This document shows, in pieces, positions 14,897 through 46,999 of a DNA stretch of 64,000 nucleotides. The translations under genes were made by a program, and so were the position numbers. The notes beneath the pieces are model-generated. The model was not told where the DNA came from. It saw only the letters and a program-made list of their open reading frames with translations, and made no database searches. The DNA is taken from NCBI RefSeq assembly GCF_024714475.1, contig NZ_JAMZMI010000001.1, forward strand, positions 186,001 through 250,000, read 5' to 3'. The first letter of the stretch is position 1, and the number at the start of each line of letters is the position of its first letter. This DNA comes from Marinoscillum sp. MHG1-6 (GTDB lineage: Bacteria > Bacteroidota > Bacteroidia > Cytophagales > Cyclobacteriaceae).

Positions 14897-17344
14897 TTAT
14901 TTAGCTACCAATGTATTAATGACTAATGCCAGCGTACCTAAGCTGGTCGCAATCCCCATCCATTCTCCCGGTGTCATACGGACACGCTCTCGCTTCTCAG
15001 GAACAATGACCTCTGCTCCGGCTGTCACCGTAGGATAATCCTTAAAGAATAAGAAGGACTTCGTCTTCTTGGCGGTCCCATTGGCATAGATCACATAGAT
15101 CTTGCGCTTCATGGCCCGGTCTCCAAACCCACCGGCCTTGGCTATGTAACGCCCCAGGGAGGTAGAACCATCATAATGGATGGTACTCGGATAGAGCACC
15201 TTACCTCTCACCTTGATCGTCTCCAGTTGCCTTGGTACATTGAGAATATCTCCTTCCTTCAAGATAAGGTCATACTTGGACCCCGGATTCCTGACAATCT
15301 CGTCCAGGTAGATACCAATGGTCTCCCTACCTTTGAAGTCCAGCTCATTGTCCCTCAACAACGTATCACGTTGATAAAGGGCTGTCAGTTTCTGCTTCTT
15401 CACCTCGGTCACCTCGTCACGTGACTCCTCTGAATCCGGATTGTACTCTGATAACCTCACTAAAGAAGCGCCTTCTGCATAAGCATATTGATTCAGACCT
15501 CCAGCACGCTTCAACACGTCGGAGATACGTTCATTTTTCTTTTCCAGCACATATTTCCCCGGGTATTCCACCTCACCTACAACCTCCATCATTTTCTGTG
15601 TATTGAAAAAAGGTGAAGTTCGGATCACTACCAGATCAAATGGCTCCAACACAAAATTGGAAGCCTCCTCATCGATCTTCAGATTGGCACTGATCGAGAA
15701 GTTGAAGATCTCAGCGCTGTATGTCTCACCTTTTGGGTCATCATAAATTCTTCTCGCTACCTCAACGAAGGACTTTGCAGCACCCTGCTTGAACCCTCCT
15801 GACAGGTAAATGAGGTTTTCCACTGTCATTCCTTCGAAATAGTCATACTCGCCCGGCATCCTTACCTCACCCTGCACTTTGATGTTATAGTTTTCTCGCA
15901 GATCAAAAATGGATCGCACCTTAATCAGGTCTTCGCTTTGCAGCTCCATGTCAAAGCCACCCTCTACCAGATCCTTAGGACTGAAAGCGATGTTGCTCAA
16001 GGTAAAATCTCCATTTTCACGAACGATCAATGCCTGCTCCCTGAAAACATCTCCCCGGAATCCATCAGCAGCATTGATCAGTTCCGATAGCATCATCCCC
16101 TCTGCAAACTCATATTCCCCCTCATGATTCACGGCACCTTCTACTCTTACACGCCCTTTAAACTTTGAGGAAATCACTCCAACTTCTGCATAATCTCCAT
16201 TCTTCAAAGTGAGACTTTCAAACTCTCCGGAAAAGACGGTTTTGACCGTTTTGAAATTTTGCTCATTTCGTTGCAGGGAGATACTCCTGGTGTAGGCCTC
16301 CATGCCAAAGCCTCCCGCAAACTTCACGAGATCTGCCACCGTCTCCGTTTCCAGCATTTCATAATAAGCCGGCCTCTTTACCTCGCCGTTGATGCCCACC
16401 CTGATGCCATATGGCTGCACCAAAATCACATCCTGATCCTGAAGGGCAATGTTTTCTCCACCACCTTCGACGATGTAACTATAAGCATCCAGGTCAGTCA
16501 CTTTCTTACCGCCACGAAATACCGCTATCGTCCTGAGTGATCCATTTTCTGATGGCCCTCCTGCCACGTATAAGGCATTGAAAGCGGTAGCAAAAGAGGA
16601 CAGGGTGTAGGTACCCGGCTGCTTCACCTCACCGACCACGTTTACCTTGATGGTACGTAATTTCCCCAGCGTTACCTGGGCGTAAGTATTGCTCCCAAGC
16701 GTACTGTAAATAGCTCTTAATTTTGATTTTAGTTTGGTATCTGCCTGCTCAATGGTCAATCCATTCAAATAGATGGGCCCAACACCCATGATGTTCACAT
16801 TACCATCCGGGCTAATAGGTAACTGGTAGCTTTGCTCTGAGGCACCCCAGATATCTATCAGCACCTGGTCACCCGGCCCCAACAAATAATTTTGAGGCGT
16901 GGCTACATTCAAAGAGGGCTCAAAGGAAAGTTTCTTATTGTTAAAGAAATCCGTGCCAAAAACCTTCAGCTCCAACTCTTCCTCAGCGGTACCTTCCGCC
17001 ACTTCAACCGGCTTGTCAATTTTTTCAGGCATCTGACGCGAGCGATCTTCTCCCACTTCTGCCATGGTCGTTTCTGTACTTCCTGATTTTGACTGTACCT
17101 CCCTGATTCTCTTTCGTAGTTTGGAAATCTGTGCGGAACTCATCCCACGGGCTCTGGCCATTTGCTCGAGCTGTTGCTCTGTCATGCCAGTAGCAGCCGC
17201 ACGCTCCAGGTACATCTCGATCTGCGCATCGGACATGTCGTCTACATTCACATTCTGCAGGTTGTCCGGATCAATCTGACCCAGCACCTGAACTATATTG
17301 ATACCGATTAGTAATGCTACGAATAAGAGTCTTTTTCCCATCAT
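14897..17344 (-). CDS. wza: Wza-like polysaccharide export protein with SLBB domains, cluster 1
   Basis: This is a large outer-membrane export protein of about 815 residues. A cleavable signal (KRLLFVALLIGINIVQVLG) has no lipobox Cys. A short helical domain of about 60 residues follows and ends in RARGMSSAQISKLRKRI. The polysaccharide export domain starts near residue 150 with YLLGPGDQVLIDIWG, then come several SLBB repeats (for example VNVVGEVKQPGTYTL and VRVEGAVNHEGEY). A hydrophobic helix lies at the C-terminus. E. coli Wza is about 380 residues, so this is the long form. I set the start at the ATG pair 17344/17341, because the next upstream start is a TTG inside the promoter box. It opens cluster 1. 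The cluster 2 paralogue (28562-31024) has the same domain order. Confidence 0.93.
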   Translation of the reverse strand: MMGKRLLFVALLIGINIVQVLGQIDPDNLQNVNVDDMSDAQIEMYLERAAATGMTEQQLEQMARARGMSSAQISKLRKRIREVQSKSGSTETTMAEVGEDRSRQMPEKIDKPVEVAEGTAEEELELKVFGTDFFNNKKLSFEPSLNVATPQNYLLGPGDQVLIDIWGASEQSYQLPISPDGNVNIMGVGPIYLNGLTIEQADTKLKSKLRAIYSTLGSNTYAQVTLGKLRTIKVNVVGEVKQPGTYTLSSFATAFNALYVAGGPSENGSLRTIAVFRGGKKVTDLDAYSYIVEGGGENIALQDQDVILVQPYGIRVGINGEVKRPAYYEMLETETVADLVKFAGGFGMEAYTRSISLQRNEQNFKTVKTVFSGEFESLTLKNGDYAEVGVISSKFKGRVRVEGAVNHEGEYEFAEGMMLSELINAADGFRGDVFREQALIVRENGDFTLSNIAFSPKDLVEGGFDMELQSEDLIKVRSIFDLRENYNIKVQGEVRMPGEYDYFEGMTVENLIYLSGGFKQGAAKSFVEVARRIYDDPKGETYSAEIFNFSISANLKIDEEASNFVLEPFDLVVIRTSPFFNTQKMMEVVGEVEYPGKYVLEKKNERISDVLKRAGGLNQYAYAEGASLVRLSEYNPDSEESRDEVTEVKKQKLTALYQRDTLLRDNELDFKGRETIGIYLDEIVRNPGSKYDLILKEGDILNVPRQLETIKVRGKVLYPSTIHYDGSTSLGRYIAKAGGFGDRAMKRKIYVIYANGTAKKTKSFLFFKDYPTVTAGAEVIVPEKRERVRMTPGEWMGIATSLGTLALVINTLVAK

Positions 17345-17359
17345 CAATTTTCTTGGCTG

Positions 17360-17388
17360 CAAATATATAGCGTGCAGATAACTTCAAT
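17360..17388 (-). promoter_or_regulatory. Promoter of polysaccharide cluster 1
   Basis: The minus strand carries TATATTTG (17367-17360), an exact -7 match, with ATTG (17388-17385) 17 bases upstream as a one-mismatch -33 element. The -7 box ends 15 bases before the wza ATG at 17344, leaving a leader of about ten bases. This is the only good promoter between the end of cluster 2 and wza. It probably drives wza, wzz and the genes behind them. Confidence 0.6.
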
Positions 17389-28561: not shown

Positions 28562-31024
28562 TTAGTTAGCCAAATTATTAATAATCAACGCCAATGTGGC
28601 CAATCCTGTACTGATGCCAATCACTTCCTGGGGCAGCATTTTCCTCCGTTCCGGTTTTTCCGGGATGATAATCTCTGCTCCCGGCTCCACATCCGGATAA
28701 TTCTTAAGCCACAAAAAACTATTCGTCTTGTCAGTGGTCCCATTGGCATAAACCACATAAGCCCTTCGCTTCCTGGCATCTTCTGTAAAACCTCCCGCCT
28801 GACCCACAAATTGCTTCAAAGAAGATGATTTGCTATATCTCACGATTCCTGGTCGTAGCACCTCTCCCCGTACTCTTACTGTTTGTAATTTGCGAGGCAC
28901 ATTCAAAATATCTCCGGACTTTAAGATCAGGTCATATTCAGATCCCGGATCATCCATTATTTTTTTCAGCTCAATCCCTATCGGTTCTAATTCTTTGAAT
29001 TCTTCTTCTCCGCTATCTACCAGCGTATCACGCCTTATCAAGCCTTCCAACTCCTCCCGTCTCACATCAGCTACCGTTTTATTCTCGTCTTCCGCTGCAA
29101 AGTAATCCGACTTACGGATCAGGGAAGCCCCTTCCACAAAAGCAATGCTTGTAAAGCCACCGGAACGTCTGATCAAATCAGAAATACGCTCCGTTTTACT
29201 TTCCAAAGCATATTTCCCGGGAAACTGAACCTCTCCATCAACCTGTACAATGGCTTGTCTTTCATAGAAAGGGGATTTGCGAATGACCACGAGATCAAAA
29301 GGTGCCAGTTTAAATGATGATGCCTCCTCAGAGAGTCCCAGGTTTTCACTGATCGGAAAATTGTAAACCTCAGATGCCTTCGTATCCTCATCAGGCTGAC
29401 TGGTCACCCTACGAGAGATCTCCACCACAGAGCGTGCTGCGGCTTCGCTAAATCCTCCGGCCAGTAATATTAAATCTTCCACGGTCATACCACTTACAAA
29501 AGGAAAATCTCCTGGTGCCCTCGCTTCTCCGTCAATGGTCAGAATAAGCGCCTCACGCAGATCAAAGATGGATTGTATTTTGATCAGGTCCCCGCTGTTC
29601 AGTTCAAAGTCGACAGACCCTGAAAGAACTTCAACAGGTTCAAAAGGTATATTGGATAATGTCAAATCTTCATTTTCACGGATGATCAGGGCACGCAAAA
29701 GGAAAGCATCCTTTCGCAGGCCATCAGCCAGCGCGATTGCATCTGAAAGCTTCATGCCTTCCTGTAGCTCAAAAGACCCAGGATGGTTCACTGCGCCTTC
29801 TACCCTTACCCGGTTCACAAAATAATTTGATATTTTGACGATCTCTACTTCGTCCCCATCCTGAAGATTCAGGCTTTCAAATGCTCCTTTACCCACTGTC
29901 CTAATGGTCTTAAAGTTTTCCGCATTACGCTGCAACGAAACACTTTTGGAATAGGCCTGGCCATTAAAACCTCCACAAAAATCCAGCAACGATGCCAGCG
30001 TTTCATCCGCTTTTACTTCGTAGATCATCGGGCGCTTCACCTCTCCGTCAACTTTTACATGAGCAACATAAGGTTTCACCAGCACCACATCCTGATCCTG
30101 GAGTTTGATTGCTTCACCTTCGCCATAAATCAAAAATTTGTAAGCATCCAGCTCAGCTACCTTTTTCCCATTTCTAAATACAAAAATTTCCCTTAGGGAA
30201 CCAGACTCGCTCGGGCCTCCGGCCTGATACAGCGCATTGAACGCCGTTCCAAAAGAGGATAATTGATAGGTGCCGGGTTTTGCAACTTCACCAACTACAT
30301 TAACTGATATGGTCTTGATCTGACCAAGAGACACCTGATAGAAAGTATTGCTACCCAGGCTGGAGAAAATAGATTTAAGCTTTATACCCAGCTTGGATGC
30401 TGCCTTTTCTACAGTCAAGCCATTAAGGTAAACCGGTCCCAGCCTCGGAATGAGGATTGAGCCTTCAGGAGAAATTGTTAGTCGATAGGTGACTTCAGAA
30501 GCCCCCCAGATATCAATGATCATTTCATCTCCCGGGCCTAACAAATAATTCTCAGGAGTCGGGATATTCATGCTCGGCTCAAAAGTCAGTTTACCGTTGG
30601 TGAAAAATGCCATGCCAAAAATTTCAGATGGCTCGTCAAGGGAATCAGTATGAATATAAAGATCTGCATAGGGATCAAAATCAGTGTTAATCTCCTCAGC
30701 CACTTGAGGCAGCCTTCGAACCCGAGCATCGGCATTGACTTGTCCGGAAACACTTGCAGCGCCTCTTTGTAAGGCTCTGGCTTTCAATTTGGCAATCTGG
30801 GCCGGAGACATCCCCCGGGCCCGGGCCAATACCTCGAGCTGTTGCTCGGTGTAGCCACTGGCCTTGGCCTTTTCTAAAAAATTTTCAAGCTGTTCATCTG
30901 TCAAGTTATCAACCTCAATATTTTGAAGGTTCGCAGATGTGCCTAAATTCTGAGCACCCAGATGTGTAGCCACACATAATATGACCATCATGGCAGCCAG
31001 CTGGTTCTTAATCATCACTGTCAT
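28562..31024 (-). CDS. wza: Wza-like polysaccharide export protein with SLBB domains, cluster 2
   Basis: This is the cluster 2 counterpart of 14897-17344, about 820 residues. A signal peptide (LAAMMVILCVATHLGAQ) is followed by a helical N-terminal domain with LEVLARARGMSPAQIAKLKAR. Then come the export domain (YLLGPGDEMIIDIWG), several SLBB repeats, and a hydrophobic C-terminal helix. I start at ATG 31024, or possibly the in-frame ATG at 31015. The longest frame begins at a TTG inside the -7 box and is unlikely. It is the first gene of cluster 2, 3 bases before wzz. The near-identical architecture of the two Wza proteins shows that both clusters use the same export design. Confidence 0.93.
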   Translation of the reverse strand: MTVMIKNQLAAMMVILCVATHLGAQNLGTSANLQNIEVDNLTDEQLENFLEKAKASGYTEQQLEVLARARGMSPAQIAKLKARALQRGAASVSGQVNADARVRRLPQVAEEINTDFDPYADLYIHTDSLDEPSEIFGMAFFTNGKLTFEPSMNIPTPENYLLGPGDEMIIDIWGASEVTYRLTISPEGSILIPRLGPVYLNGLTVEKAASKLGIKLKSIFSSLGSNTFYQVSLGQIKTISVNVVGEVAKPGTYQLSSFGTAFNALYQAGGPSESGSLREIFVFRNGKKVAELDAYKFLIYGEGEAIKLQDQDVVLVKPYVAHVKVDGEVKRPMIYEVKADETLASLLDFCGGFNGQAYSKSVSLQRNAENFKTIRTVGKGAFESLNLQDGDEVEIVKISNYFVNRVRVEGAVNHPGSFELQEGMKLSDAIALADGLRKDAFLLRALIIRENEDLTLSNIPFEPVEVLSGSVDFELNSGDLIKIQSIFDLREALILTIDGEARAPGDFPFVSGMTVEDLILLAGGFSEAAARSVVEISRRVTSQPDEDTKASEVYNFPISENLGLSEEASSFKLAPFDLVVIRKSPFYERQAIVQVDGEVQFPGKYALESKTERISDLIRRSGGFTSIAFVEGASLIRKSDYFAAEDENKTVADVRREELEGLIRRDTLVDSGEEEFKELEPIGIELKKIMDDPGSEYDLILKSGDILNVPRKLQTVRVRGEVLRPGIVRYSKSSSLKQFVGQAGGFTEDARKRRAYVVYANGTTDKTNSFLWLKNYPDVEPGAEIIIPEKPERRKMLPQEVIGISTGLATLALIINNLAN

Positions 31025-31033
31025 AGTTAGCCG

Positions 31034-31041
31034 CAAATATA
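31034..31041 (-). promoter_or_regulatory. Candidate -7 promoter box of polysaccharide cluster 2
   Basis: On the minus strand this is TATATTTG, followed by CGGC, an exact match to TAnnTTTG, 9 bases upstream of the ATG at 31024 and 18 upstream of the in-frame ATG at 31015. I see no good -33 element. The implied leader is very short, or absent if 31024 is used. Confidence 0.5.
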
Positions 31042-42563: not shown

Positions 42564-43217
42564 ATGATGGACCAAGTAATTGCCCTGGTAAAAAAAGATT
42601 TACAAGTCGATTGGAGAAACCGCTACCCGGTAGCCGGACTTATCCTCTATATTATTGTACTGGTAATCATCGGCTACCTGTCATTCGCTAACTTCATAGA
42701 ACCGGAGGTTTGGAATGCCCTATTCTGGACCATCCTGTTATTTACCTCGGTAAATGCCATTGCCAAAAGCTTTATCCAGGAGGATGACCGATCTTTATAT
42801 TACTTTTTCACAGCAAAACCCATAGCCATCATTTTGGCCAAGCTGGTCTATCACTGCGTGTATCAGTTGATTTTGCTCGCCATTGCATTAATGGCTTTTT
42901 CGCTGTTTTTGGGAGGGCCGACAGGCAATCTTCCATTGTTCTACCTAAACCTGATCGTGGGGTCGCTTGGGTTGTCCAGTGCCTTTACATTGATCTCGGC
43001 CCTGGCCTCCAAGACCAATAACCAGTCGATCATGATGGCCATCTTAGGTTTCCCGGTAATTATTCCGGTACTGATCCTCGCCATTTCCAACTCTAAAATG
43101 GTCATTTTAGGCGGTGGCTGGGCAGACATATCCACCAACTTCATTGCGCTCGTGAGTGTGAATATGATTATCATTGCGCTGACTTTTATCTTGTTTCCAT
43201 TTACCTGGAAATCATAG
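42564..43217 (+). CDS. ccmB: Heme exporter protein CcmB
   Basis: CcmB (217 residues) is the membrane subunit of the CcmAB ABC transporter that releases holo-CcmE during cytochrome c maturation. It has six hydrophobic segments and the typical N-terminus with a KKDLQVDWRNRY cytoplasmic stretch. The FIQEDDRSLYYFFTAKP region near 70 and the FPVIIPVLILAI segment near 165 are also family-like. There are two consecutive ATG codons (42564 and 42567). The ATPase gene ccmA is not beside it, which is common in Bacteroidota. It starts a tight plus-strand operon with ccmC. Confidence 0.9.
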   Translation: MMDQVIALVKKDLQVDWRNRYPVAGLILYIIVLVIIGYLSFANFIEPEVWNALFWTILLFTSVNAIAKSFIQEDDRSLYYFFTAKPIAIILAKLVYHCVYQLILLAIALMAFSLFLGGPTGNLPLFYLNLIVGSLGLSSAFTLISALASKTNNQSIMMAILGFPVIIPVLILAISNSKMVILGGGWADISTNFIALVSVNMIIIALTFILFPFTWKS

Positions 43218-43219
43218 CT

Positions 43220-43891
43220 ATGCAATATCTTTTGAGGACGAATTGGTGGAAATGGGCATGTGCCATATTGTTGATTTACGTAGTCATCGCCGGACTGCTT
43301 ATGCCCACACCTCGATTACCCATTTTGAATGAAACGATAAGGGTGCTTCACTTCCATGTACCCATGTGGTTCGGAATGTTGTTCCTTTTCATGGGATCAG
43401 TCATTCATGCGATCAAATACCTCTCTTCGGGAAAGCAAATCAATGATACAATGAGCCAAAGCCTGGCTACCGTAGGAGTTTTCTTTGGGATTTTGGGGAT
43501 GGTGACCGGCATGTTTTGGGCGACCTTTACCTGGGGTGAGCCATGGAGCAGTGATCCAAAGCAAAATGCCTCTGCCATCGGTCTCCTGATTTACTTTGCA
43601 TATTTCATCCTAAGAGGTTCGATTCAGGACGAGCAGCAGCGATCTAAAATTTCTGCGGTCTACAACATTTTTGCCTTCGCAGCCATCATCCCCTTACTGT
43701 TTATCCTGCCCCGATTAACGGATAGTCTTCATCCGGGAAATGGTGGAAACCCCGGCTTCAACAGCTATGACCTGGATAGCCGGTTAAGAACTGTTTTCTA
43801 TCCGGCAGTGATCGGATGGACCTTGCTCGGGTTCTGGATTGCGAGCATTAGAATCAAATTACAAAATATCAACCATCAGCTTGATGATTAA
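43220..43891 (+). CDS. ccmC: Heme handling protein CcmC
   Basis: CcmC (223 residues, six membrane segments) brings heme to CcmE in the periplasm. The tryptophan-rich loop is ATFTWGEPWSSDPKQNASAI near 95, a Bacteroidota form of the WWD motif. Candidate heme-ligand histidines are in VLHFHVPMWFGM near 40 and in SLHPGNGG near 172, flanking the loop on the outside. It starts two bases after the ccmB stop, and its end overlaps the small ccmD by 8 bases. The family call is strong. CcsA is related, but neighbours and length support CcmC. Confidence 0.92.
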   Translation: MQYLLRTNWWKWACAILLIYVVIAGLLMPTPRLPILNETIRVLHFHVPMWFGMLFLFMGSVIHAIKYLSSGKQINDTMSQSLATVGVFFGILGMVTGMFWATFTWGEPWSSDPKQNASAIGLLIYFAYFILRGSIQDEQQRSKISAVYNIFAFAAIIPLLFILPRLTDSLHPGNGGNPGFNSYDLDSRLRTVFYPAVIGWTLLGFWIASIRIKLQNINHQLDD

Positions 43892-44075
43892 TCTTTTAAC
43901 CATACTATCACTGTTATTACAGGTGCCTATGGCCGACACTTTTCGAAGTGACGGAAAAATTTATGTAGTCATAGCCATCATTTTGATCATCCTTTTGGGA
44001 ATGTTTTTTTATCTATTTCGCTTAGATAAGAAGATCGGTCAAATCGAGGAAGAACTAAAAGACAAGGAAAAGTGA
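43884..44075 (+). CDS. ccmD: CcmD-like small membrane protein
   Basis: The small protein (63 residues from the ATG at 43884) has one hydrophobic helix (IYVVIAIILIILLGMFFYLF) and a charged cytoplasmic-like tail, KKIGQIEEELKDKEK. It lies exactly between ccmC and ccmE, the position of CcmD, which stabilises the CcmC-CcmE heme complex. A first hydrophobic stretch (MINLLTILSLLLQVP) may be a signal or the start may be the inner ATG before ADTFRS. It overlaps ccmC by 8 bases and the GTG of ccmE by 4. Similarity to proteobacterial CcmD is only in shape. Confidence 0.8.
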   Translation: MINLLTILSLLLQVPMADTFRSDGKIYVVIAIILIILLGMFFYLFRLDKKIGQIEEELKDKEK

Positions 44076-44476
44076 AAAAAACACATATCATCGGAATTCT
44101 GGTGATCGCCGTGGCCATCATTGTGATCATTTCCACAGCGGGAGATGCCAGTGCTTATGTAACTTTCAAAGAAGCTAAAGAGATGTACGACCATGGAAAT
44201 AAAAACAAAATCCATGTGGTTGGTACATTGAAAAAAGCGGAAAACGGAGACATCCTGGGTATTCAAACAAGCCCGGATATGCTTTCATTCAAGTTTACCA
44301 TGCTCGATGAAAATAACTTCGAGCAAGAGGTTTTTCATCCTAACCCTATGCCGACGGATTTCTTGAGGTCAGAACAGGTGGTAGTGGTAGGCTCCTATGA
44401 AAATGGCAAATTCATTGCCGACAAGATCTTACTTAAATGCCCATCAAAATATCAGGAAGAGGGAGTTAACGTCTAA
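44072..44476 (+). CDS. ccmE: Heme chaperone CcmE (CxxxY type)
   Basis: CcmE (134 residues) is a membrane-anchored periplasmic heme chaperone with one N-terminal helix (about 5-22) and an OB-fold domain. The heme-binding site, normally HxxxY, here reads CPSKY with Cys123 and Tyr127. The Cys replaces the covalent-heme histidine, as in the variant pathway called System I*, described in archaea and Desulfovibrio. The start is GTG and overlaps the ccmD stop (GTGA). It sits between ccmD and ccmF. The substitution is read directly from the codon TGC at 44438-44440. Confidence 0.93.
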   Translation: MKKTHIIGILVIAVAIIVIISTAGDASAYVTFKEAKEMYDHGNKNKIHVVGTLKKAENGDILGIQTSPDMLSFKFTMLDENNFEQEVFHPNPMPTDFLRSEQVVVVGSYENGKFIADKILLKCPSKYQEEGVNV

Positions 44477-44479
44477 GAA

Positions 44480-46999
44480 ATGGTGCATCTTCTCATTGGA
44501 AATTTAGGCCACTTGCTTGTCATAGTGGCCTTTGTTACTTCTTTACTTGCTACATTTTCCTTCTGGAAATCCACTAACAATCAGGAATCCACATGGGCCG
44601 GTTTCGCCAAATGGATGTACTACATTCATGTGATGGCGATTTTGGGAGTATGTACCACCTTATTCCTCATTATCAACCAACAATATTTCGAGTATCATTA
44701 TGCCTTTAGCTATACTTCGAAATACCTTCCAATTTACTACCAGATTTCAAGTTTTTGGAATGGTCAGGAAGGCTCCTTCCTGCTTTGGATGTTCTGGAAT
44801 GCCATACTGGGTGTAATCCTGATCCAAACAAACAAGACCTGGAAGGCTCCGATGATGATGTTCTTTTCATTTACACAGGTTTTCCTGGTATCTATGATCA
44901 TGGGCGTTGTGATATTCGGAGGGAAGATCGGAAGCTCTCCATTTATGTTACTAAGAGATGTAGTAAGCGATCCTATCTTCGATATTGATCCCAACTTTAT
45001 CCCCGAAGATGGCCGTGGGCTGAACCCCCTACTTCAGAATTATTGGATGGTAATCCACCCACCGACCCTTTTCCTGGGTTTTGCTACTACAGTTATTCCG
45101 TTTGCCTATTGCCTGGCAGGACTTTATACAGGAAGGTTCAAAGAATGGATACGACCCGCACTACCCTGGGCACAATTCTCAGCAGCCGTACTTGGTTTGG
45201 GAATTTTGATGGGTGCCTATTGGGCTTATGAAACCCTGAACTTTGGAGGGTACTGGAACTGGGACCCTGTGGAAAATGCCATTTATGTACCCTGGCTGGT
45301 GATGGTGGCAGCCATTCATACGATGATCGCCTTTAAGAAGAATGAAACGGCACTCAAGGCATCCATCATTCTGGTAATTACCACCTATGTGTTGATTGTA
45401 TATTCCACCTTCCTGACTAGAAGTGGTATTCTTGGCAATGCTTCGGTCCACTCCTTTACCGACCTGGGTCTTTCCGGTCAGTTGCTGATCTACCTTTTTG
45501 TTTTCATCATCCTTTCAATAGTGGTGGCAGCCAGAATCTGGCCTTCCATCCCTTCAGCAAAAGAGGAGGTGTCCGCTTACTCACGAGAGTTCTGGATTTT
45601 CATTGGAGCCACTGCTTTAAGCCTGATGGCCTTTCAGGTGATCATCCCAACTTCTATCCCTGTGTGGAATGAGATCATTGAATTCTTTGGCGGCAACTCC
45701 AACCTGGCTCCACCCGCTGAGCAGGTAGAATTTTATACCAAATTTCAACTGTACTTTGCTGTCGCCATTGCGCTGCTTTCCGGTACCGGGCAATTCTTCT
45801 GGTGGAAAAAGATGGACAGAGCCGAACTCAAAAAACAGCTCAGCACCCCTGTGATGATCGCGCTGATCTTATCGGCCTTAATCATAGTCATCTTCAAAAT
45901 ACAGGTAGCCGGTTATATCCTATTGCTCACCGCCTCTGTGTATTCAGTCGTAGCCAACACCAAAATTTTCCTCTCTGTTGCCAAATCAAACATCAAACTA
46001 TCAGGGGGGGCCATCACCCACATTGGTGTGGCATTCATGCTGCTGGGAATTCTGTTCTCCTCAGGCTATTCCAAAATCCTGTCTAAGAACAACACCGGTT
46101 TGGTCTGGAGTAAAGAGTTTCCGGATGAGGTGAACCAAAATAATCTGTTGCTCTTCCTGAATGAGCCTCGCCAAATGGCCGATTACTCCCTGACTTACAA
46201 GGGAATTAGAAAACTTAGCAAAGACTACGGCTACGTTGATCTCAATGACATTGAAGGGGCTATTTCTCCTTTGGAAATCATCATCGCCCGTGAGACGAAA
46301 ACGAGCACCGGAGAAATGCTACAGCCAGGAGATACCATTGACATTTTCAACCCCGAAAACAGTTATTTCGAGGTGGAATACCAAAAGCATTCAGGCGCAA
46401 GCTTTACGTTGTTTCCACGACTTCAGATGAATGAGTCCATGGATATGCTGGTTTATTCACCAGATATTAATCGGACAGTAACAGCCGATCTCTATACCCA
46501 TGTCAGAACCTTCCCCGATCCGGAATCAGAAACCAACTGGAGTGAGGTCAAGGAGGTAAAGGCGGAGCCCGGAATGACGTTCTTCATCAATGACTATGTG
46601 GCCAAATTTGTGAGCATGGAGCCCCTCGATGAGGTAGCTGGTGTCGCGATGAAAGATGGTGACCTTGCTATTAAAACCCTAATTGAGATCCAAGGTGAAA
46701 ACAAGACCTACCAGGCCGAGCCCATCTACATCATCAAAGACAAAATGGCGGGCAGAATTCCATATGTCGTAAATGATCTCGCTTCCAAAATCACGGTGCA
46801 AAGTATCTTACCTGAGGAGAACAGCTTTGTTTTTGGGGTGAGCACTACACAGAAGGACTGGATCATCATAGAGGCGGTTGAAAAACCGTGGATCAATATC
46901 CTATGGCTGGGTACTTTACTATTGGTGATTGGATTTGGTGTGGCCACGAATCGTCGCTACACCGAGTTTGTAAAAATGCGTGATAAGGGAATGGAATGA
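44480..46999 (+). CDS. ccmF: Heme lyase CcmF
   Basis: CcmF (839 residues) is the large membrane protein that joins heme from CcmE to apocytochrome c. It has more than a dozen hydrophobic segments. The WWD-type periplasmic heme motif is GGYWNWDPVENAIYVPWL near 254, and histidines lie in MVIHPPTLFLGF near 191 and in NASVHSFTDLG near 316. A long C-terminal periplasmic domain (about 560-800) precedes a last helix. It starts 3 bases after ccmE, and its stop overlaps the next gene by 4 bases. The family's usual length is 630-650, so this belongs to the longer Bacteroidota form. Confidence 0.94.
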   Translation: MVHLLIGNLGHLLVIVAFVTSLLATFSFWKSTNNQESTWAGFAKWMYYIHVMAILGVCTTLFLIINQQYFEYHYAFSYTSKYLPIYYQISSFWNGQEGSFLLWMFWNAILGVILIQTNKTWKAPMMMFFSFTQVFLVSMIMGVVIFGGKIGSSPFMLLRDVVSDPIFDIDPNFIPEDGRGLNPLLQNYWMVIHPPTLFLGFATTVIPFAYCLAGLYTGRFKEWIRPALPWAQFSAAVLGLGILMGAYWAYETLNFGGYWNWDPVENAIYVPWLVMVAAIHTMIAFKKNETALKASIILVITTYVLIVYSTFLTRSGILGNASVHSFTDLGLSGQLLIYLFVFIILSIVVAARIWPSIPSAKEEVSAYSREFWIFIGATALSLMAFQVIIPTSIPVWNEIIEFFGGNSNLAPPAEQVEFYTKFQLYFAVAIALLSGTGQFFWWKKMDRAELKKQLSTPVMIALILSALIIVIFKIQVAGYILLLTASVYSVVANTKIFLSVAKSNIKLSGGAITHIGVAFMLLGILFSSGYSKILSKNNTGLVWSKEFPDEVNQNNLLLFLNEPRQMADYSLTYKGIRKLSKDYGYVDLNDIEGAISPLEIIIARETKTSTGEMLQPGDTIDIFNPENSYFEVEYQKHSGASFTLFPRLQMNESMDMLVYSPDINRTVTADLYTHVRTFPDPESETNWSEVKEVKAEPGMTFFINDYVAKFVSMEPLDEVAGVAMKDGDLAIKTLIEIQGENKTYQAEPIYIIKDKMAGRIPYVVNDLASKITVQSILPEENSFVFGVSTTQKDWIIIEAVEKPWINILWLGTLLLVIGFGVATNRRYTEFVKMRDKGME

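Follow-up and report, generated by a model that had tools for sequence, protein, structure and literature searches.

Cytochrome c maturation genes of Marinoscillum sp. MHG1-6 point to System I*, with a cysteine-type CcmE, as the probable standard form in Bacteroidota

Five co-directional genes, ccmB-C-D-E-F, span positions 42564 to 46999 of the window (the whole stretch of 64,000 nucleotides of Marinoscillum sp. MHG1-6 DNA that was analyzed) and raise the question of how cytochromes c are matured when CcmE carries a cysteine in place of the heme-binding histidine and ccmA, ccmG and ccmH are missing alongside. On both gene order and missing neighbors, the ORFs and family matches of the neighborhood bore out the preliminary description, which had gone on to suggest a Bacteroidota version of System I*, a variant pathway published between 2006 and 2011. 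Heme attachment is needed in this organism, given the approximately 11 Cytochrome_CBB3 (cytochrome-c-domain) matches in its genome. Our main reading, to which we assign a probability of roughly 0.8, is that the genes encode bacterial System I* cytochrome c maturation and that this is the standard form in Bacteroidota; at the level of sequence, it is based on gene content, the CcmE motif and its conservation, the absence of CcmH and ResB, a CcmA profile and an insert in CcmF.

All five genes lie on the forward strand. The first, ccmB (42564 to 43217), encodes the heme ABC transporter permease subunit and matched Pfam CcmB with 54 bits (cut-off, 24.9); its score fell below the NCBIfam equivalog cut-off, i.e., the protein is divergent. 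Next comes ccmC (43220 to 43891; Pfam Cytochrom_C_asm, 57.8 bits), the product of which loads heme onto CcmE. In an alignment with E. coli CcmC, both heme-ligand histidine positions (H46 and H171) were found to be retained, and the WWD motif reads WGEPWSSDPK. The tryptophan directly preceding the aspartate of this motif is missing from the Bacteroidia rows of the CcmC alignment; it is retained in E. coli (VWD) and in most lineages outside class Bacteroidia. The small membrane protein CcmD is encoded at 43884 to 44075 (Pfam CcmD_alt, 65.7 bits), with an uncertain start codon, the ORF being open from a TTG at 43839.

The ccmE gene (44072 to 44476), which ends with ILLKCPSKYQEEGVNV, encodes a 134-aa heme chaperone that matched Pfam CcmE with 45.7 bits (E value, 8.8e-12; cut-off, 24.6). 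Within it, bases 44438 to 44452 encode CPSKY, residues 123 to 127. In a phmmer comparison with solved structures, weak when taken alone (E value, 0.12), C123 and Y127 were aligned with the HDENY motif of E. coli CcmE (1sr3 and 8ce8), and a 34-row CcmE alignment, in which K122 and Y127 are invariant, E. coli included, likewise placed C123 at the position of the E. coli heme histidine, H130, and Y127 at that of Y134. With a cysteine at the one place and a tyrosine at the other, the initial observation that CPSKY replaces the heme-binding histidine was correct, and the HxxxY of classical System I is absent from this CcmE. Heme is predicted to attach to C123, with Y127 as its predicted axial ligand. 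A cysteine-type CcmE from Desulfovibrio carries covalent heme and works without CcmG and CcmH (PMC3601427), and the cysteine of the Methanosarcina CXXXY motif is required for heme attachment (PMC9084895); by analogy with this work, we infer that C123 binds heme covalently. A plasmid-borne CcmE of Natronorubrum bangense (L259:1240-1695) has neither CxxxY nor HxxxY at the usual place, where it reads RAHEGEHPDDH.

The motif is no local oddity. CcmE was found in 54 of 59 genomes of an order-level sample and in 161 of 247 genomes of a phylum-level sample, and CPSKY was present in every CcmE read, namely, 30/30 from the former, 30/30 from the latter and all 32 Bacteroidota loci of the CcmE alignment. 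Allowing for 10 genomes that the alignment shares with the order- and phylum-level reads, this amounts to 82 distinct genomes other than the one under study, with CPSKY in 82 of 82 and HxxxY in none. A search of named genomes with CcmF yielded 80 loci, 71 of which hold CcmE, in each case with CPSKY (71/71); since these loci were found by CcmF and not by the motif, the count is free of motif bias. Carriers include Fulvivirga, Cecembia, Belliella, Dyadobacter, Spirosoma, Hymenobacter, Pedobacter, Mucilaginibacter, Sphingobacterium, Chitinophaga, Saprospiraceae, Balneolales and Ignavibacteria. Judged by every genome and locus read, then, the cysteine type is the rule of the phylum and no peculiarity of this cluster. 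The label of a Bacteroidota version of System I* is largely right. No plasmid-borne CcmE relatives were found by tblastn. Two contigs, titled Comamonas and Sphingomonadales, hold Bacteroidota-type ccm genes with CPSKY and are probably the result of binning errors in metagenome-assembled genomes.

A 2011 review ranks CPSKY first in frequency among the motifs of variant CcmE proteins and names delta-proteobacteria, Chloroflexi and Firmicutes as carriers of System I* (PMC3601427). The reviews searched and the archaeal paper (PMC9084895) do not mention Bacteroidetes, and our literature searches found no description of System I* in Bacteroidota, although the papers that defined System I*, Allen 2006 and Goddard 2010 (the latter on Desulfovibrio), may list some Bacteroidetes. 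Cytochrome c maturation in this phylum is hardly mentioned in the literature searched; the pathway described here is carried by most of the Bacteroidota genera sampled outside the CcmE-free group. It offers a clean natural experiment on two questions: by what means a thioether-type carrier releases its heme, and what performs the task of CcmH.

The assembly (4.10 Mb in 25 contigs; listed completeness, 100%) was searched family by family. Neither a second CcmE with HxxxY nor a full ccmGH set, both of which had been named as findings that would argue against a System I*-like pathway, occurs in it: there is a single PF03100 match, the CcmE of the window, there is no CcmH match and no CcmG match exceeds the family cut-off. 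CcmH (PF03918) is absent from all 59 genomes (this one and 58 relatives), while the same search was positive in the controls E. coli, Caulobacter, Thermus and Deinobacterium; across the phylum, weak matches were seen in 7 of 247 genomes, 2 of them over the cut-off. Weak CcmH-like matches of this kind were noted in ORFs of 250 to 320 aa at five loci, all from genomes of one taxonomic family (f34) outside class Bacteroidia. These results bear on the possibility of an ordinary System I in which ccmG and ccmH lie elsewhere and the change from histidine to cysteine is cosmetic. It is true that one ccm gene, ccmA, lies apart from the others (see below), but with no CcmH in the genome or its 58 relatives, no CcmG above the cut-off, and with published swaps between histidine and cysteine at the CcmE heme site tolerated in neither direction (PMC3601427), we regard that explanation as largely refuted and scarcely credible.

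The absence of CcmH is no hallmark of System I*. The variant pathway had been described as lacking CcmH, which is indeed absent here, but about one-third of the System I* bacteria have it (PMC3601427). The plasmid-borne ccm locus of Cytobacillus firmus (NZ_CP107028) resembles the present one in having a CPSKY CcmE, but it retains CcmH, and an ABC ATPase adjoins its ccmB. Motif and CcmH loss are therefore separable, and the motif alone is no proof of a CcmH-free reaction.

The claim that ccmA is lacking held for the neighborhood only. Neither here nor in the order-level loci examined does ccmB have an ATPase gene as a neighbor. In some lineages outside class Bacteroidia (five loci), an ABC ATPase precedes ccmB, and with one such ATPase as the query, the best match in the genome under study was a 199-aa protein encoded on another contig (C18, 70744 onward; L152:8745-9341). 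In a tree, 27 unlinked and 5 ccmB-adjacent ATPases formed one clade (support, 99/99), adjoined, with weak support (82/52), by E. coli CcmA. Against the NCBIfam CcmA model (TIGR01189), the 199-aa ATPase scored 106.5 bits, below the cut-off of 131.6, though this was still the best of 184 families; since every ABC ATPase matches that model, rendering it uninformative on its own, a clade-specific profile was used instead. At an E value of ≤1e-40, this profile found a match in 158 of 161 genomes with CcmE and in none of 86 without, counts that are not independent and yield no probability, as the CcmE-free genomes mostly belong to one large related group, yet that show no exception in the other direction. 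Only in 19 of the 140 genomes with both places listed was the profile match less than 6 kb from ccmE. Outright loss of CcmA, with CcmB working without an ATPase, would agree with the empty place next to ccmB here and in the order-level loci; given that the unlinked ATPase clusters with ccmB-adjacent ones, is present in nearly all CcmE genomes and never occurs without CcmE, we hold it to be highly improbable. Shared clade and co-occurrence instead indicate that ccmA has been relocated and not lost. As ccmA lies outside the operon across most of the phylum, the gene content of an operon can by itself mislead. The moved ccmA and the enlarged CcmF discussed below are the parts worth following. In many Cytophagales (eight loci), the same ATPase gene follows genes that we take, from reading the neighboring protein sequences, to be lpxC/fabZ and lpxA.

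The components CcmABC(D)F that define System I* are thus present, with CcmB, CcmC, CcmD and CcmF encoded in the window and a CcmA-type ATPase on another contig. As in the System I* of Desulfovibrio, there is a cysteine-type CcmE, no CcmG or CcmH in the operon and a machinery of the CcmABCDEF type; the unlinked ccmA sets the present form apart. The archaeal Ccm of Methanosarcina acetivorans likewise has a CXXXY CcmE and no CcmH or CcmI (PMC9084895), but archaea lack CcmD and the Methanosarcina CcmF is split in two, whereas the present system includes CcmD and has a single, enlarged CcmF. With the System I of E. coli (CcmABCDEFGH), finally, the families CcmB to CcmF are shared, as are all four heme histidines of CcmF and the two histidine positions of CcmC, whereas CcmE has cysteine for histidine, CcmG and CcmH are missing, ccmA lies elsewhere and W216 of CcmF is lost. 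By gene content and motif, the Bacteroidota form falls within System I* as defined, with CcmF features not shared by the outgroup CcmF proteins examined.

Under our main reading, CcmB with the unlinked CcmA ATPase, CcmC and CcmD would load heme onto CcmE, which would carry it covalently through C123 of CPSKY, by a thioether where E. coli uses a bond to histidine; Y127 would serve as the axial ligand. CcmF would then accept the heme and, without help from CcmH, attach it to the cysteines of apocytochrome CXXCH motifs, while general thiol reductases (one DsbD and several thioredoxin-like proteins) would keep these cysteines reduced. That the system can function without CcmH is suggested by the same work on Desulfovibrio and Methanosarcina.

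CcmF, the cytochrome c synthase, is encoded at 44480 to 46999 and comprises 839 aa, compared with 647 aa in E. coli. It was assigned by its family match, by alignments and by an AlphaFold model (pLDDT, 91.5) that matches Thermus CcmF (6zmq) with a TM score of 0.84 by target length. The heme histidines are present (H193, H280, H324 and H514), all four E. coli positions being conserved in 28/28 and 64/64 aligned CcmF proteins. Extra periplasmic residues lie within the stretch from 670 to 803 (46487 to 46888), as recognized in the alignments and in the predicted structure. A conserved periplasmic aspartate and the proline that precedes the last helix are separated by 133 residues here, about 110 of them extra, and by 128 to 269 in the Bacteroidota proteins of the main CcmF alignment (n = 64), compared with 20 to 23 in five outgroups (E. 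coli, Cytobacillus, Pseudonocardia, Ruegeria and Natronorubrum). One phylum member (locus L100) has a CcmF without the insert (31 residues). An insert that tracks CPSKY was considered and rejected, Cytobacillus having the motif and no insert; its CcmF (660 aa) moreover keeps the W216 tryptophan, so that motif, CcmH, place of the ATPase, insert and tryptophan are independent traits.

In the model of the insert region (pLDDT, 95.4), a second series of strands follows the first at an offset of 100 to 102 residues, which suggests that the insert forms a second beta cap. HHalign aligned a single stretch at an offset of 102 residues, as in the predicted strands, with a probability of 5% and an E value of 0.008, which is not significant, leaving a tandem duplication of the cap unproven by sequence. 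The insert corresponds to no Pfam family, and when the isolated periplasmic domain served as the query of a fold search, no hit was significant, CcsBA ranking third (probability, 0.30). Such a domain could bind or cap the substrate, and one hypothesis is that it has replaced CcmH in the handling of apocytochromes. In thiol chemistry the insert cannot replace CcmH, being free of cysteine in 59 of 64 proteins. This speaks for an alternative in which the heme step proceeds as proposed, an unrelated TlpA- or ResA-like thioredoxin replaces CcmH and the insert has another role or none. Six thioredoxin-like matches in the genome fell short of the CcmG cut-off, the highest-scoring being a 196-aa ORF, and one DsbD is present, although no candidate gene adjoins the ccm genes; we consider this division of labor a serious possibility, somewhat short of even odds.

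The second peculiarity of CcmF concerns electrons. In E. coli, W216 is part of a proposed tryptophan relay that passes electrons to the incoming heme (PMC10663686). None of the 64 Bacteroidota proteins has a tryptophan at this position, the substitutes being mostly small or aliphatic residues (here A235, 45182 to 45184), and W253 is retained. Tentatively, and with more doubt than confidence, we suggest that the Bacteroidota synthase is CcmF alone, that the second beta cap before the last membrane helix took on apocytochrome binding when CcmH was lost and that, with the cysteine-type CcmE and an electron route changed by the loss of W216, it represents a distinct phylum-wide type of synthase. 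The same loss, and the membership of CcmC and CcmF in the WWD family of CcsA, could be taken to mean that CcmF obtains its heme by a route resembling that of System II, with CcmE a minor accessory whose cysteine carries no heme. This is very unlikely: the genome has no match to ResB (PF05140) of System II, so that System II is not the alternative, and CPSKY is conserved without exception, with CcmA, CcmB, CcmC and CcmE all retained. In two near-complete members of the family (G006 and G014), CcmE is missing and ResB-type proteins of approximately 1,020 to 1,060 aa occur in its stead, as if System II had replaced System I* as a whole.

Upstream of the ccm genes, a long run of minus-strand genes contains two polysaccharide export genes about 11 kb apart (14897 to 17362 and 28562 to 31036), each encoding approximately 820 aa with Poly_export and SLBB domains.
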